DNA from: a virus
IMG/VR virus record: IMGVR_UViG_3300036399_000241
Coordinates: 1 to 21,681 of that record
DNA length: 21,681 bases
Direction: 5' to 3' (one strand)
Below, piece after piece: positions 3,907 through 17,621 of the stretch; the first letter of the stretch is position 1; each line of letters starts with the position of its first letter. The notes under the pieces were generated by a model, which did not search any database, had not been told where the DNA came from, and saw nothing but the letters and a program-made list of their open reading frames with translations. Both the position numbers and the translations under genes were made by a program.

Positions 3907-3930
3907 GGGGGGCTTTGGCCCCCCTTTCTC
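3907..3930 (+). terminator. Rho-independent terminator after the coat gene
   Basis: A perfect 7-bp stem GGGGGGC/GCCCCCC (3907-3913 with 3918-3924) closes a TTTG loop and is followed by TTTCTCTT. It begins 16 bases after the coat stop codon. The short, interrupted T tract may allow some readthrough into the genes downstream, for which I see no clear new promoter. Confidence 0.85.
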
Positions 3931-3955
3931 TTAGGAAAGCACCCAAAAAGGCCAA

Positions 3956-4219
3956 ATGATGCAAGACGACATCCGCACCCCTCGACACAAAAAGCCGGTC
4001 AAGATTCGCAAACCCTCTCAACCGCTGGACGGCATCAATCATCGACTTCTGCGTGAACAAGCCGCAGCCCAAGCACAGCAGACAGACGAATTCAAACCCG
4101 ACGACACAGAACCCACCCGTGAGGAACTGGAGGCCAAGGCCGCAGAACTTGGTATTCGATTTGACGGTCGCACAAGTGACAAAAAATTGAATTCATTGAT
4201 TGAAGCCAAACTTAAATGA
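3956..4219 (+). CDS. Small protein with C-terminal HeH/SAP-like motif
   Basis: An 87-residue basic-then-acidic protein. ATG 3956 is chosen, with AAGG a few bases upstream; a second ATG follows immediately. Residues 1-35 are basic and Pro-rich (TPRHKKPVKIRKPSQP), the middle is Gln/Ala-rich, and about 54-87 carry TREELEAKAAELGIRFDG then TSDKKLNSLIEAKLK. That helix-extended loop-helix pattern matches the HeH/LEM/SAP-like motif found at the end of many small phage head-region proteins. Such motifs often bind nucleic acid, so a DNA or head-neck role is possible but unproven. The stop overlaps the next start by ATGA. Confidence 0.75.
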   Translation: MMQDDIRTPRHKKPVKIRKPSQPLDGINHRLLREQAAAQAQQTDEFKPDDTEPTREELEAKAAELGIRFDGRTSDKKLNSLIEAKLK

Positions 4220-4683
4220 AAATCGCTTTCCGCAAAACAAACGCCCCAGGATTGATAGCCGGGTTGTTTAATCGCTACACAAAATGGACGCTCAAAACAG
4301 GCTATGCCCATGGTGGCGTAGTCATTGGTGATCAACTTTGGCACACGACAAGATCGGGGTTTTTGGCGGAAAAGTTTACTGATCAGGAAAATTGGGATTT
4401 GTTTGAAACACCAGTAACGGATAAAATCGCATCAGAACGGACTACTAAAGTTCTAAAAATGCGGTATGACCCGTTTTCGCTGCTTGGTTTCAAATTGCCC
4501 TTTAGGTTTTCTGACTCAAAAGGTTTGTATTGTTTTGAAGTCCAATGGATCGCGTTGACGGGGATGCACCCCAATCAACCCATCAGCCCTGACAGTGTTA
4601 TGGCTGAGATCCTGAGGATGCTTAATGCGAAAAGCAATCAAGCTTGCGCTCACGCTGTCAGCGATAATGACGCTCACGGGTAG
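4216..4683 (+). CDS. Putative NlpC/P60-superfamily (permuted papain-like) amidase-fold protein
   Basis: A 155-residue protein translationally coupled to the gene before it (ATGA). Two blocks suggest a circularly permuted NlpC/P60 or LRAT/YiiX-like cysteine hydrolase fold. The first is residues 30-45 (YAHGGVVIGDQLWHTT), with candidate catalytic His32. The second is residues 103-113 (GLYCFEVQWIA), with candidate nucleophile Cys106 at the start of a helix, as in the family pattern 'C-(S/F)-E'. In this superfamily the permuted members have His before Cys, as here. Substrates in the family include peptidoglycan peptides and acylated lipids or proteins; nothing here tells which. It could act in lysis, in entry, or on a host target. 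Its C-terminal end overlaps the next small gene by 59 bases. Confidence 0.65.
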   Translation: MKIAFRKTNAPGLIAGLFNRYTKWTLKTGYAHGGVVIGDQLWHTTRSGFLAEKFTDQENWDLFETPVTDKIASERTTKVLKMRYDPFSLLGFKLPFRFSDSKGLYCFEVQWIALTGMHPNQPISPDSVMAEILRMLNAKSNQACAHAVSDNDAHG

Positions 4684-4801
4684 CATACTCATTCCAATTG
4701 TTCAAACATTTGACCCAGTCATGCAAAATATCATCTATCGAATTCTGTCGCTTCCTTTGATGGTAGCCGTGGCCTATGGTATTTATGGGAGTGAGAAATG
4801 A
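4625..4801 (+). CDS. 58-residue membrane protein with two predicted transmembrane helices
   Basis: A small frame starting at ATG 4625, with GAGG at 4614-4617 (7 bases upstream), overlapping the end of the amidase-fold gene and ending in an ATGA overlap with the next gene. The product begins MRKAIKLALTLSAIM and has hydrophobic stretches at about residues 7-25 and 36-53, separated by a short polar turn with Asp30. The basic N-terminus predicts both ends inside the cell. Size and topology resemble small phage holin-like or accessory membrane proteins, but I recognise no family. Coupling on both sides and a good ribosome-binding site support that it is real. Confidence 0.65.
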   Translation: MRKAIKLALTLSAIMTLTGSILIPIVQTFDPVMQNIIYRILSLPLMVAVAYGIYGSEK

Positions 4802-5043
4802 CAACTGATGAATACACAACAGAAGCATTTGGATTCAAGGTCTTGTTGGGTGGTGGTGCCATGACAACCTTTTCAACTTGGCTTTCATCGCTTGATTGGA
4901 CTACAGTGATAGGTGTGACTGTGATGATTTGCGGTGCAATCCTGCAAATCATTGGCTCTCTCAGAGCCAAAAAAGCTGATCAGCGTGAGCAAGAAAAACA
5001 CGCTATTGAAATGGCTGTTTTACGCAAAAAACTGGAGGAATGA
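4798..5043 (+). CDS. Holin-like small membrane protein
   Basis: An 81-residue protein with one clear transmembrane segment (about residues 34-54, TTVIGVTVMICGAILQIIGS), followed by a strongly charged, helical tail (LRAKKADQREQEKHAIEM to KKLEE). A single helix with a charged cytoplasmic tail fits several small phage holin-like families. The start at 4798 has GGGAG upstream and overlaps the previous stop; a second in-frame ATG at 4861 (MTTFSTWL) could give a 60-residue short form, a dual-start pattern known in lambda S. A structural or membrane-anchoring role is the main alternative, because the recognised lysis genes are about 12 kb away. Confidence 0.65.
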   Translation: MTTDEYTTEAFGFKVLLGGGAMTTFSTWLSSLDWTTVIGVTVMICGAILQIIGSLRAKKADQREQEKHAIEMAVLRKKLEE

Positions 5044-5044
5044 C

Positions 5045-5524
5045 ATGGGATGGACAAAGCGCCAATTTATTGAGCAAGCCTTTGACGAAATCGGGCTGGC
5101 CTCTTACGTTTTTGACCTGACACCTGAGCAACTTCAATCTGCCCTTCGGCGTCTCGACATGATGATGTCCGCATGGAACGCCCTTGGCATTCGATTGTCC
5201 TACCCACTGCCATCAAGCCCTCAAGACAGTGACCTAGACGAACAAACCAACGTGCCCGACAGCGCCAATCAAGCCATCTACACCAACTTGGCAATTAAGC
5301 TGGCCCCGTCTTACGGTAAACAAGTTTTACCAGACACCAAAGCCACAGCCAAAGAGTCTTACAACACGCTCCTGTCACGCGCAGCCATGCCGATGGAACA
5401 GCAACTTCCTGCAACCATGTCAGCAGGCGCAGGTAACAAACCTTGGCGCATTGACAACCCATTCATTCGCCCACCATCTGACCCCGTTTTAGCCGGTGGT
5501 GATGGCCCCATTGAATTTAACTAA
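5045..5524 (+). CDS. P22 gp4-type tail accessory factor (head-tail adaptor)
   Basis: A 159-residue protein. ATG 5045 is chosen because GGAGGA sits at 5034-5039 and the start lies one base after the preceding stop; the upstream in-frame extension runs through another gene. P22 gp4 binds the portal ring and is the first factor that closes the filled head and begins the short tail. The sequence follows the gp4 pattern: helical start (TKRQFIEQAFDEIGLASY), a 'LRRLDMMMSAWNALGI' helix like the LEAMMAEW segment of gp4, then a later helix NLAIKLAPSYGKQV like NLACRIAPDY, and KESYNTLLSRA. Length is close to P22's 166. In P22 this gene follows the coat gene directly; here a four-gene insert separates them. 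Confidence 0.88.
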   Translation: MGWTKRQFIEQAFDEIGLASYVFDLTPEQLQSALRRLDMMMSAWNALGIRLSYPLPSSPQDSDLDEQTNVPDSANQAIYTNLAIKLAPSYGKQVLPDTKATAKESYNTLLSRAAMPMEQQLPATMSAGAGNKPWRIDNPFIRPPSDPVLAGGDGPIEFN

Positions 5525-15610: not shown

Positions 15611-15868
15611 ATGGCTTTAGAAAAAGTTGAGATTGTTGACCGCATTGAGGTCTTGGAAAGCGGCTCTGTGCAAGTTCGCACCAAGACCGTAATCAAAGAA
15701 GATGGCGTTGAAATCAGCAGCAAGTTTGCTCGCCACGTTGTCGCCCCCGGCGATGATTACAGCGCCGAAGATGCAAAGGTCAAAGCCATCTGCGCTGCCA
15801 TGCACACCGCTGACGTTGTGGCCGCATACAAGGAATTGCAAAATGCTGCTCAAACTTCTAAAGTCTAA
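15611..15868 (+). CDS. Conserved small phage protein
   Basis: An 85-residue protein. ATG 15611 is chosen because GGAG lies at 15601-15604; the in-frame TTG at 15599 would add four residues. The sequence contains VQVRTKTVIKEDGVEISSKF then RHVVAPGDDYSAEDAKVKAI and ends in a helix (TADVVAAYKELQ). I recall similar short proteins near tail and lysis genes of many phages, where they remain uncharacterised. No membrane segment. The last 26 bases overlap the start of the next gene in another frame. Confidence 0.7.
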   Translation: MALEKVEIVDRIEVLESGSVQVRTKTVIKEDGVEISSKFARHVVAPGDDYSAEDAKVKAICAAMHTADVVAAYKELQNAAQTSKV

Positions 15869-16031
15869 AACAGTCCTGTTTGCACTGCTTCTTGCGGTGC
15901 TTTCGATTGTGCAAGGGTATGTATTCTTGCTGCCCATCACGCCGACTGAGCAAATGTTTGTCGGTATCGCCATTTCAATTGCTGTGACGTTACTTCGTAT
16001 TGTTACGACACAGCCCATTTCTGAAAAATAA
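15843..16031 (+). CDS. 62-residue membrane protein with two helices, holin candidate
   Basis: ATG 15843 is preceded by AAGGA in the end of the gene before. The product has a basic start (MLLKLLKSK), hydrophobic segments at about 10-30 (TVLFALLLAVLSIVQGYVFL) and 40-56 (VGIAISIAVTLLRIV), a short turn with Pro residues between and a polar tail (TTQPISEK). Topology fits a small two-helix holin, and it is the membrane protein nearest to the lysozyme (about 550 bases upstream). Class II-like holin is my best reading; a different small membrane function cannot be excluded. Confidence 0.7.
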   Translation: MLLKLLKSKTVLFALLLAVLSIVQGYVFLLPITPTEQMFVGIAISIAVTLLRIVTTQPISEK

Positions 16032-16406: not shown

Positions 16407-16591
16407 TGCAAGACCGAATCTTAAAATTGATAGGCGAAAACCCACGAACAGCAAAAGAACTTGCCGATTCGTTGGGTGTTTCTAAACAAGAGATCATTGA
16501 TCTACTTGAAAATATGCCTGTCAAAAAGATTCGGTTAATCAGTCGAAACGGAAAATCTCAACCACTTATTTTTTATAAGTACACACTATGA
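16406..16591 (+). CDS. Small helix-turn-helix (winged-helix) protein
   Basis: A 61-residue protein; ATG 16406 shares its A with the previous stop (TGATG), and the stop overlaps the lysozyme start (ATGA). Residues about 3-35 read as a helix-turn-helix (ILKLIGENPRTAKELADSLG then VSKQEIIDLLENM), followed by a two-strand wing (KKIRLISRNGKSQPLIFYKY). The whole protein is one winged-helix domain, without a ligand or oligomerisation part. It could be a late-gene regulator made together with the lysis genes. Function otherwise unknown. Confidence 0.7.
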   Translation: MQDRILKLIGENPRTAKELADSLGVSKQEIIDLLENMPVKKIRLISRNGKSQPLIFYKYTL

Positions 16592-17211
16592 AACGCGCAT
16601 CCATTGCAGCCTTAACGCTTTCAGCCGCCGGTCTTGCTGGGATTGTCGCGCACGAAGGTTATACATCACGCGCCGTTGTCCCTGTTGCTGGCGATCCTCA
16701 GACCGTGGGGTTTGGAAGCACCACACGGCCCGATGGAACGCCCGTAAAGAAAGGCGAGACCATCACCCCCGTGGAGGCTGTTCGCTTTGCTGTTGAACAC
16801 ATCGCAAAGGATGAAAAGCGACTTGCAAAATGCGTGAAGGCTCCTGTTTCTCAGAAAGAATATGACATTCTTGTGGGTCACTCTTACCAGTTCGGTGCAG
16901 TGAAAACATGTAGTTCCACCATCGTCAAAAAAATCAACGCAGGTGACTATATCGGAGCTTGCAATGAGTACGAACGCTGGAAAAAAGTCCGGGGCAAAGA
17001 TTGCAGTGTCGAAGGTAGCGGATGCGCCGGGGTTTACACCAGGGCACTAGAGCGCCGGGACCAATGTTTGGCGGCACAAAATGTAAATACCCCAACACCG
17101 GATGACGAAGTTGATGTGGTGGTTTCTGAAGTAACCACTAACTATTCTTGGATTGTTGTTATTTTGTTAGTTATCGCCGGGTTTTTTGCTTACCGCCGCT
17201 GGAAACAATGA
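16588..17211 (+). CDS. Endolysin, GH24 lysozyme with N-terminal SAR-like and C-terminal membrane helices
   Basis: A 207-residue peptidoglycan-cleaving muramidase. The N-terminal Ala/Gly/Ser-rich, weakly hydrophobic stretch (about residues 5-21, SIAALTLSAAGLAGIVA) with basic MKR before it looks like a signal-anchor-release (SAR) segment. The GH24 catalytic set follows: Glu23 (AHEGYTS), Asp36 (AGDPQ) and Thr39 within TVGFGST; a helical domain to about 165 includes DILVGHSYQFGAV. Six cysteines lie between 82 and 161. Unusually, after an acidic Pro/Val linker the chain ends with a second clear membrane helix (YSWIVVILLVIAGFFAY, about 186-202) and a basic RRWKQ tail. Basic residues at both ends predict N- and C-termini in the cytoplasm and the enzyme domain in the periplasm. 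It overlaps the genes on both sides by ATGA. Confidence 0.88.
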   Translation: MKRASIAALTLSAAGLAGIVAHEGYTSRAVVPVAGDPQTVGFGSTTRPDGTPVKKGETITPVEAVRFAVEHIAKDEKRLAKCVKAPVSQKEYDILVGHSYQFGAVKTCSSTIVKKINAGDYIGACNEYERWKKVRGKDCSVEGSGCAGVYTRALERRDQCLAAQNVNTPTPDDEVDVVVSEVTTNYSWIVVILLVIAGFFAYRRWKQ

Positions 17212-17621
17212 ATCGCATTTTCATTGCATTGATTTTGGTCGCTGCCTCTGTCGCAGGTTTTATGCTTTACCAAGCTGGAAGAATCCACGAAAAAAGCCAT
17301 TGGCTTTCTTTGGAAAACTCCACCCTACGAGAACAGGCCAAAGAAATCGCTAGACAGGTCGAGCAAGCCGCCAAAGCACAAAAGGAATACATCCATGCCC
17401 AAGATGAAATTAATGACCTTGCTGTGCGTTTGCGCGATTCTGACCGGCTGCGCGTCCAGTCTGACCACAGAGCAAAGATCGAAAAAGCCACAAGCGCAAA
17501 TCTCAGAATCTACGCCCGTGGATTACACGATCTTTACTCAACGTGTCGAAAAGAATTTGAAGCAATGGGACTTGAAGGAGCAAGAGCTGCTTCAGGTGTT
17601 GGAGCCTTGAACGTAAAGTAA
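17208..17621 (+). CDS. Rz: Inner-membrane spanin (Rz-like)
   Basis: A 137-residue protein; ATG 17208 overlaps the lysozyme stop (ATGA), and the longer in-frame extension is discarded. One N-terminal membrane helix (about 4-22, IFIALILVAASVAGFMLYQ) is followed by a long charged periplasmic coiled coil (LENSTLREQAKEIARQVEQA to HAQDEINDLAVRLRDSDRLR). This is the i-spanin plan: it joins the outer-membrane partner to fuse inner and outer membranes in the last step of lysis. The partner gene is wholly embedded in another frame at 17395-17610. The C-terminal part is also antisense to the - strand gene at 17534-17851. Confidence 0.88.
   Translation: MNRIFIALILVAASVAGFMLYQAGRIHEKSHWLSLENSTLREQAKEIARQVEQAAKAQKEYIHAQDEINDLAVRLRDSDRLRVQSDHRAKIEKATSANLRIYARGLHDLYSTCRKEFEAMGLEGARAASGVGALNVK
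17395..17610 (+). CDS. Rz1: Outer-membrane spanin lipoprotein (Rz1-like), embedded in Rz
   Basis: A 71-residue protein encoded entirely within Rz in the +1 frame. It has a basic start (MPKMK), a hydrophobic signal and a lipobox LTGC with the acylated Cys at residue 19. The mature part is about 53 residues (CASSLTTEQRSKKPQ, then VDYTIFTQRVEKNLKQWDLK). Signal peptidase II cleavage and export to the outer membrane are expected. Lambda Rz1 is also embedded in Rz, but lambda's mature part is Pro-rich and this one is not. Met4 could be the start instead. Embedded position plus lipobox make the call secure. Confidence 0.88.
   Translation: MPKMKLMTLLCVCAILTGCASSLTTEQRSKKPQAQISESTPVDYTIFTQRVEKNLKQWDLKEQELLQVLEP

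Follow-up and report, generated by a model that had tools for sequence, protein, structure and literature searches.

A rare three-gene block with a predicted permuted NlpC/P60 enzyme between the coat and gp4 genes of a P22-like phage, a possible lysis-type module

Several described systems come close to the one considered here, a set of three overlapping genes, encoding a predicted cysteine enzyme and two small membrane proteins, that lies between the coat gene and gp4 of IMGVR_UViG_3300036399_000241, a virus record of 21,681 bases that was analysed over its whole length and is referred to below as the window. For enzymes of the YiiX/BcPPNE type, the passages of Xu and colleagues (PMC3142127) that deal with them give a catalytic set of Cys, His, a polar residue and Tyr, and for YiiX a hydrophobic pocket with a fatty acid. 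Tox-Act1, of the Salmonella type VI secretion system (T6SS), is presented in the relevant part of PMC12994826 as a phospholipase whose toxicity needs both His and Cys, and LnsA of Staphylococcus, as a passage of PMC7387801 has it, works with the membrane protein LnsB in lipoprotein acylation. For permuted papain-like amidases one part of PMC9703825 states a DNA-entry role on the envelope and also assigns cell-wall degradation to them. Within phage lysis itself, mycobacteriophage LysB is described in a section of PMC5707550 as an esterase of envelope lipids that is carried in the lysis cassette and provides a third lysis step.

The window belongs to a P22-like phage by its matches to library profiles, and the features of P22-type membership were found with Pfam in the coat protein (PF11651), gp4 (PF11650) and the stabilisation protein (PF11134), with the coat gene (1.4e-84) bordering the block on its left. 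An earlier note had seen four open reading frames between coat and gp4 and regarded all four as an insert, on the understanding that gp4 usually comes directly after the coat gene. The four frames are indeed there (Table 1), but neither the grouping nor the understanding survived a survey of this slot in IMG/VR, for which the best 80 of the 492 loci nearest by gp4 and the best 80 of at least 596 by coat were taken; after removal of the window and repeats (L004 and L084-L087, which are the window itself or repeats of L002 and L003), 128 contigs show both the coat end and gp4. Among the relatives whose gap was read (14 loci, 14 more and one without gp4) the coat gene is usually followed by small genes, often the HeH/SAP-like gene (SAP below), and then by gp4. 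Of the 128 contigs, 114 have a SAP homologue in this gap and three have the enzyme there. The SAP gene is therefore a resident of the clade that stands outside the insert, and the insert consists of three genes, 4216 to 5043, called the trio here. The contigs that carry the enzyme are 3300034284_000604 and 3300042351_000343 (in both the enzyme is identical to that of the window), and 3300042890_001968 (95%). Across this region two of the surveyed loci, L001 and L002, do not differ from the window, and they may represent one population with it. It is an evenly balanced judgement that the insert is a lysis-type module of three genes which moved into a head-gene slot, with its enzyme acting on membrane lipids or lipoproteins.

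The evidence that carries this reading comes from two other contigs, 3300006037_000688 (L189) and 3300006805_002256 (L190), where the same trio, in the same order and 31-46% identical, precedes endolysin and Rz-like genes. In these contigs the enzyme (35%, tblastn) is followed by a 64-residue protein with two transmembrane (TM) segments (31%) and a 92-residue holin-like protein (46%); tail-fibre-like genes (by eye) lie 5' of the trio, and 3' of it come one or two small TM genes and then an endolysin, an Rz-like gene and an Rz1-type lipoprotein (by motif). The two contigs share the trio but differ in their endolysins, which match PF00959 in L189 and phrog_7 in L190, so the trio is a unit of its own; the Rz-like gene of L189 matches phrog_312 at 4e-8. 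A separate scan with the holin-like protein gave five contigs, two of which had gone into the query together with the window, and all five also have the enzyme and the two-TM gene. Because the same trio precedes endolysin and Rz-like genes elsewhere, a lysis-type device, which the earlier note had put forward for the enzyme and membrane proteins beside roles in entry, superinfection or host defence, is the best-supported role for these three; the adjacency to a lysis cassette is seen in L189 and L190 and not in the window.

The enzyme is the member of the trio about which most can be said. From a 31-row alignment AlphaFold2 (AF2) gave a model with pLDDT 86 and pTM 0.80, whereas four near-identical rows gave pLDDT 44, which is unusable. 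With VIA-align the best structural match is E. coli YiiX (2if6, Z 10.7, 118 residues, 2.5 A), followed by B. cereus BcPPNE (3kw0, Z 9.9), HRASLS3 (4dot, Z 6.9), PPPDE1 (Z 5.5) and the related 2wp7 (Z 4.9), with unrelated rows from Z 2.9 down. Foldseek also found BcPPNE in the PDB, with probability 0.99 but E 8e-3, and viral models with E down to 4.8e-12; one match in BFVD is named YaeF/YiiX C92 (E 3e-3), and the top PDB profile match is Ljungan virus 2A, which is weak (E 0.27). The fold shown by the model is a permuted NlpC/P60 (YiiX/LRAT-like) fold, that is a predicted papain-like core in permuted order, which bears out what had been proposed from the letters. The candidate catalytic residues proposed at the same time, His32 and Cys106, are at those positions and are kept in all 31 aligned homologues, with His before Cys, which is the permuted order.

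Conservation around these residues was followed in two alignments. In the 31-row alignment (A8) H32, W60, Y84, D85, Y105 and C106 are invariant, and position 43 is H in 28 rows, E in two and Q in one. As the homologues of A5 and A8 were fetched via patterns around either the His or the Cys motif, the invariance of His and Cys in A8 is partly built in, and H32, Y84 and C106 are also invariant in an 8-row alignment (A3) that includes five named-phage proteins found by tblastn only. By its spacing His43 would be the equivalent of Glu64 of BcPPNE/YiiX, and the window enzyme would have a catalytic set matching the one in the passages of PMC3142127 named above. The outcomes that the earlier note had listed as speaking against its proposal did not appear: there is a fold match, His32 and Cys106 are conserved, and most of the relatives examined lack the block.

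Finding the wider family required searches beyond ordinary matching, with tblastn of the enzyme returning nothing from 50,697 phage records at E up to 10 and no match from plasmids, the PDB sequence search giving CFAP20 at 1.2 only, and a first genome scan giving 17 stretches, none of them related. A degenerate pattern around His32 and Cys106 gave 14 contigs, three already known, and of the remaining ones L171 alone is a true homologue (open frame, alignment score 189); the ten others were dropped, seven because the frame failed to cover both motifs and three with scores of 28-34. From L171, tblastn gave weak matches (1e-3 to 0.5) to Alteromonas phage V22, Pasteurella phages Pm86 and AFS-2018a, Pseudomonas phage pAN and Vibrio phage BONAISHI. 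Since these values are weak, the kinship of the named-phage proteins is based on their matches to phrog_1128, at 3.4e-15 or better for L171 and each of the five; CDS-28 of V22 is annotated 'permuted papain-like amidase'. Alignment-based scans of IMG/VR then yielded 12 and 47 loci. At 0.01, phrog_1128 is matched by 29 of the 31 aligned homologues and not by the window protein, whose 95% twin (L003) matches it at 3.6e-5. The cut-off of PF05708 (Peptidase_C92) was not reached, with no match for the window protein and 0.0009 (19.8 of 27 bits) for the best phage relative, V22. In phage records phrog_1128 goes by the name enoyl-CoA hydratase/carnithine racemase-like. Enoyl-CoA hydratases have a different fold, and the library name is unfit for the fold predicted here. 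Matches of the enzyme family also occur in the bacteria Limnohabitans and Hydrogenophaga, both of which we take to be Burkholderiales, and this points to Burkholderiales as hosts for the enzyme family; among 299 genomes from the family of the host of L241, a Limnohabitans lacus locus, ten (counting the centre itself) show matches at E 0.001, most of them weak.

The genes of the block are closely packed. The earlier description of ATGA or longer overlaps throughout is right for SAP and enzyme and for the 58- and 81-residue genes, which are joined by ATGA, and for the enzyme and 58-residue genes, which overlap by 59 nt (4625-4683), but not for the 81-residue gene and gp4, which have one base in between. 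At its C-terminus the enzyme has some 20 residues more than its homologue in L189, and these overprint the beginning of the 58-residue gene; because of this overrun the stop codon of the window enzyme may have been lost. Compared with the relative whose enzyme is 95% identical, the ratio of non-synonymous to synonymous change (dN/dS) is about 0.10 for the enzyme, 0.02 for the holin-like gene and about 0.2 for the 58-residue gene, the last from just five changes; by these ratios the trio genes behave as real genes under purifying selection.

Table 1. Positions of the features discussed, in the window unless a locus is named
Feature	Position	Strand	Basis or remark
Terminator-like hairpin with T-rich tail, 3' of coat gene	3907..3932	+	hairpin itself 3907-3924
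HeH/SAP-like protein, 87 residues	3956..4219	+	HeH/SAP label from the earlier note; weak family matches only
Predicted permuted NlpC/P60 (YiiX/LRAT-like) cysteine enzyme, 155 residues, trio gene 1	4216..4683	+	AF2 model and structural alignment
His32 codon, candidate catalytic His	4309..4311	+	31/31 alignment rows
His43 codon, candidate third polar residue	4342..4344	+	H 28, E 2, Q 1 of 31
Tyr84 codon, candidate for the conserved NlpC/P60 tyrosine	4465..4467	+	31/31 rows; equivalence by inference
Cys106 codon, candidate catalytic Cys	4531..4533	+	31/31 rows
58-residue protein, two predicted TM helices, trio gene 2	4625..4801	+	hydropathy peaks 1.96 and 1.69
Holin-like protein, 81 residues, trio gene 3	4798..5043	+	phrog_4237 holin 2.8e-8
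gp4 head-tail adaptor, right border of insert	5045..5524	+	PF11650 1.3e-12, phrog_637 1.5e-30
Small two-TM protein, 62 residues, candidate canonical holin	15843..16031	+	hydropathy and place only; no PHROG match
Helix-turn-helix (HTH)-like gene, 62 residues	16403..16591	+	41-44% identity to L229, L230, L233
GH24-type endolysin, directly after HTH-like gene	16588..17211	+	PF00959 1.8e-21, phrog_7 7.9e-33
Rz-like spanin	17208..17621	+	phrog_13 1.3e-4
Rz1-like lipoprotein spanin inside Rz	17395..17610	+	phrog_812 1.8e-4
One-TM coiled family member in L198	5423-5737
One-TM coiled family member in L227	5336-5614
One-TM coiled family member in L241	6420-6710

Of the two membrane proteins, the 58-residue one corresponds in position to a homologue in L189 with 31% identity. 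The 81-residue protein, with one strong hydrophobic segment, a charged C-terminus and a 46% identical homologue in L189, matches a holin profile in PHROGs yet has no Pfam match, and proteins of the same phrog_4237 that adjoin enzyme homologues in L202 and L216 pass PF16082 (Phage_holin_2_4). Very weak tblastn matches (E 0.1-0.7) are to annotated holins beside endolysins in Mannheimia and Pseudomonas phages, beside which no enzyme was seen. It is a putative holin-like protein of the class II type, as judged from its sequence.

As to substrate, timing and role in lysis, we infer the following course. The overlapping trio genes are probably translated together, late in infection, and in the slot between SAP and gp4 late transcription could still serve the module. 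The enzyme has no hydrophobic segment by hydropathy and for that reason is probably made and kept in the cytoplasm, where the 58-residue and holin-like proteins would recruit it to the cytoplasmic membrane. Once the holin triggers, the enzyme would be able to reach the periplasm and outer membrane, and it would use its Cys to cleave membrane lipids or lipoproteins at an acyl or amide bond, as permuted members reportedly do, so weakening the envelope alongside the ordinary endolysin/Rz/Rz1 set at 15.8-17.6 kb.

The slot itself is variable in other relatives, where it holds GIY-YIG-like proteins, a 204-residue decoration-like protein, small basic proteins and a 158-residue protein (names by eye). 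GIY-YIG-like genes, again by eye, lie 3' of the coat gene in L075, L081, L116 and L146, and the coat-gp4 gap of L013 carries structural-looking proteins of 204 and 710 residues. The hairpin in front of the block, which had been taken as a strong terminator tied to the insert, is present, but a simple scan places a terminator behind the coat gene in 81 of 142 loci, and since it follows the coat gene in many relatives it is not specific to the insert. Identity to 3300042890_001968 is 99.4% for coat, 93% for the part of the enzyme before the overlap, 90% for the 81-residue gene and 78-81% for gp4; because identity drops from 90% to 78-81% at gp4, the block shares its history with coat more than with gp4. 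The fall, from 90% to about 80%, lies at 5043-5045, which is possibly a recombination border.

The wider context of the enzyme was read from 50 loci, clustered at 85% into 28 enzyme groups. In 16 of the 28 clusters the enzyme gene is followed by one for a TM protein, as judged by hydropathy, against 88 of 325 background genes (P about 8e-4). The background (n=325), judged by the same plain hydropathy, includes open reading frames that may not be genes, and because the next gene was allowed any start from -75 to +45 nt, more generous than the background gene picker, the P value is only indicative. In eight of the 28 clusters the next gene belongs to a family of one-TM coiled proteins, which start with W-x-WFT-x-KVLP, have a coiled end with TRxELLETMKRVE and show weak Rz-like matches only. 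In 14 clusters the 3.5 kb downstream contain a lytic enzyme, identified in ten by motif and in four (L190, L196, L197 and L202) by PHROG.

Sibling phages carry the enzyme in the lysis region. L229 shares a contig with L065, which has a gp4 with 89% identity to that of the window, and L230 and L233 share the L229 lysis region. In all three an HTH-like gene is followed by the enzyme and a one-TM coiled protein and then by the endolysin (phrog_465 in L229, phrog_7 in L233, and in L230 by likeness to L229), with one more TM gene in between in L233. The window has homologues of the upstream genes of these siblings at 67-68% and 41-44% identity, and one more at 82% in L233. As its HTH-like gene leads directly to the endolysin, the place of the enzyme in the siblings stands empty in the window. 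The window endolysin has a hydrophobic N-terminus, signal-arrest-release (SAR)-like by eye, and an unusual-looking hydrophobic segment at the C-terminus.

The idea that the enzyme and the one-TM coiled protein replace spanins was rejected. The coiled protein has a weak Rz-like match (about 1e-3), and a lipobox motif scan of 17 loci gave convincing Rz1-like lipoproteins in L189, L190, L202, L209, L222 and L240, none in the seven coiled-protein loci (the rows for L188, L227 and L229 being spurious by eye) and none in L197, L216, L218 and L242. Of 20 lysis regions read, one of them incomplete, 17 have no enzyme there, and only G018, of the phage group of the window, and G026, one of the 17, have a convincing Rz1 by eye. 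Since siblings without the enzyme mostly lack a convincing Rz1 too, its absence follows the clade and not the enzyme.

A number of findings weigh against a lysis-type module. In the window some 11-11.5 kb separate the trio from the endolysin, and the phage is already equipped with a candidate holin, an endolysin and spanins. No enzyme homologue was detectable in 25 of 27 long P22-like relatives (whose records may be fragments), the other two being the contig of L065 and the L002 contig of the phage group of the window, and the module therefore looks dispensable. No lytic gene was found within 3.5 kb in 14 of the 28 clusters, some of which have short flanks, and several homologues lie among head genes (L198 by eye; L241, with a head/protease gene, phrog_4523, next but one) or after tail-fibre-like genes. 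Weaker holin-like relatives in L165-L167 have no enzyme seen beside them, so the holin can stand without it. The window enzyme itself has no meaningful match in Pfam, PHROGs or NCBIfam (one chance NCBIfam row, 0.087), and PHROGs files phrog_1128 under moron/host takeover.

Much of this would suit a moron, with enzyme and membrane partners altering host lipids or lipoproteins so as to block superinfection or change the surface, and with no part in lysis. The scattered presence of the enzyme (2/27 long relatives, 3/128 in the slot) agrees with such a role, as does the filing of phrog_1128, and lipid editing of this kind would explain equally well the position of several homologues directly 3' of tail-fibre genes (annotated in V22, by eye in others); LnsA and the membrane protein LnsB, as described in the passage of PMC7387801, form a comparable two-part system. 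In 14 of the 28 clusters no lytic gene was found nearby, which makes room for this role, but a holin family is matched by the third genes of the window, L189, L202 and L216, and the trio of L189 and L190 is separated from the endolysin by small TM genes alone, which leaves the moron a rather unlikely explanation, if one to be taken seriously. It is less probable still, and on the whole unlikely, that the enzyme is packaged or tail-borne and acts on the envelope during DNA entry. Its genes lie among head genes in the window, in L241 (phrog_4523) and, by eye, in L191/L198 and L194/L211, others come after tail fibres, and permuted papain-like amidases are given such a role in part of PMC9703825; against this, the enzyme has membrane-protein partners, is missing from most of the close relatives that share the virion genes, and in the loci read is encoded by a free-standing gene that is unfused to any structural protein.

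An ordinary NlpC/P60 amidase or endopeptidase of peptidoglycan, serving as a second endolysin behind the holin of the trio, would account for the general fold and the holin-like partner, and the same passage of PMC9703825 assigns cell-wall degradation, without experiment there. The order of His and Cys is however permuted, permuted members are reported as lipid-acting in the parts of PMC3142127 and PMC12994826 cited, and a GH24-type endolysin is already encoded, so that this is a very improbable alternative. Cargo that came to lie in a variable slot and serves no fixed role is the least credible of all, for although the contents of the coat-gp4 gap vary among relatives and the G+C of the insert is low (44.2% against a window mean of 51.4%, standard deviation 4.6), its genes are under purifying selection and the trio is conserved in distant contigs. 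The lysis-type module thus remains the preferred reading, and a bolder form of it can be put forward only tentatively, as a doubtful proposition: that Gram-negative phages have in the trio a lipid-acting device dedicated to lysis, comparable to LysB, in which a permuted NlpC/P60 acylase is delivered by membrane partners of its own and breaks envelope lipids or lipoproteins as the cell lyses. Such a set would be portable enough to act from a head-gene slot and would add a further lysis component to holin, endolysin and spanin. If the enzyme does act on lipids, Gram-negative phages would have their own enzymatic means to attack membranes at lysis. No paper describing such a module was found in the searches made of an open-access library. 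As a set of three genes the trio can be cloned and tested, and a family that the main phage library names enoyl-CoA hydratase has here a member with a predicted permuted papain fold.

Compared with known systems, the window enzyme is closest to the YaeF/YiiX-like enzymes (PF05708, MEROPS C92; 2if6, 3kw0), with which it shares the predicted fold, and the order of His then Cys, with a polar residue following the one and a Tyr preceding the other, but it is just 12-14% identical to them, smaller, below the Pfam cut-off and encoded by a phage, in a family that often adjoins membrane-protein genes. LRAT/HRASLS proteins and picornavirus 2A proteins have that fold too, and HRASLS3 and Ljungan virus 2A are among the matches given above, whereas there is no significant sequence relation and both host and context are other. 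Within phages the family is that of phrog_1128, including CDS-28 of V22, which the 95% twin of the window protein matches and the window protein itself falls short of. LnsA/LnsB and Tox-Act1, likened here by the published passages and not by sequence, are permuted NlpC/P60 enzymes like that of the window, and LnsA also has a membrane partner, but they are cellular proteins with no context of phage lysis. LysB differs in fold, is not of the same family and meets another host envelope, yet if the enzyme does act on lipids it is the nearest functional parallel to that of the trio.

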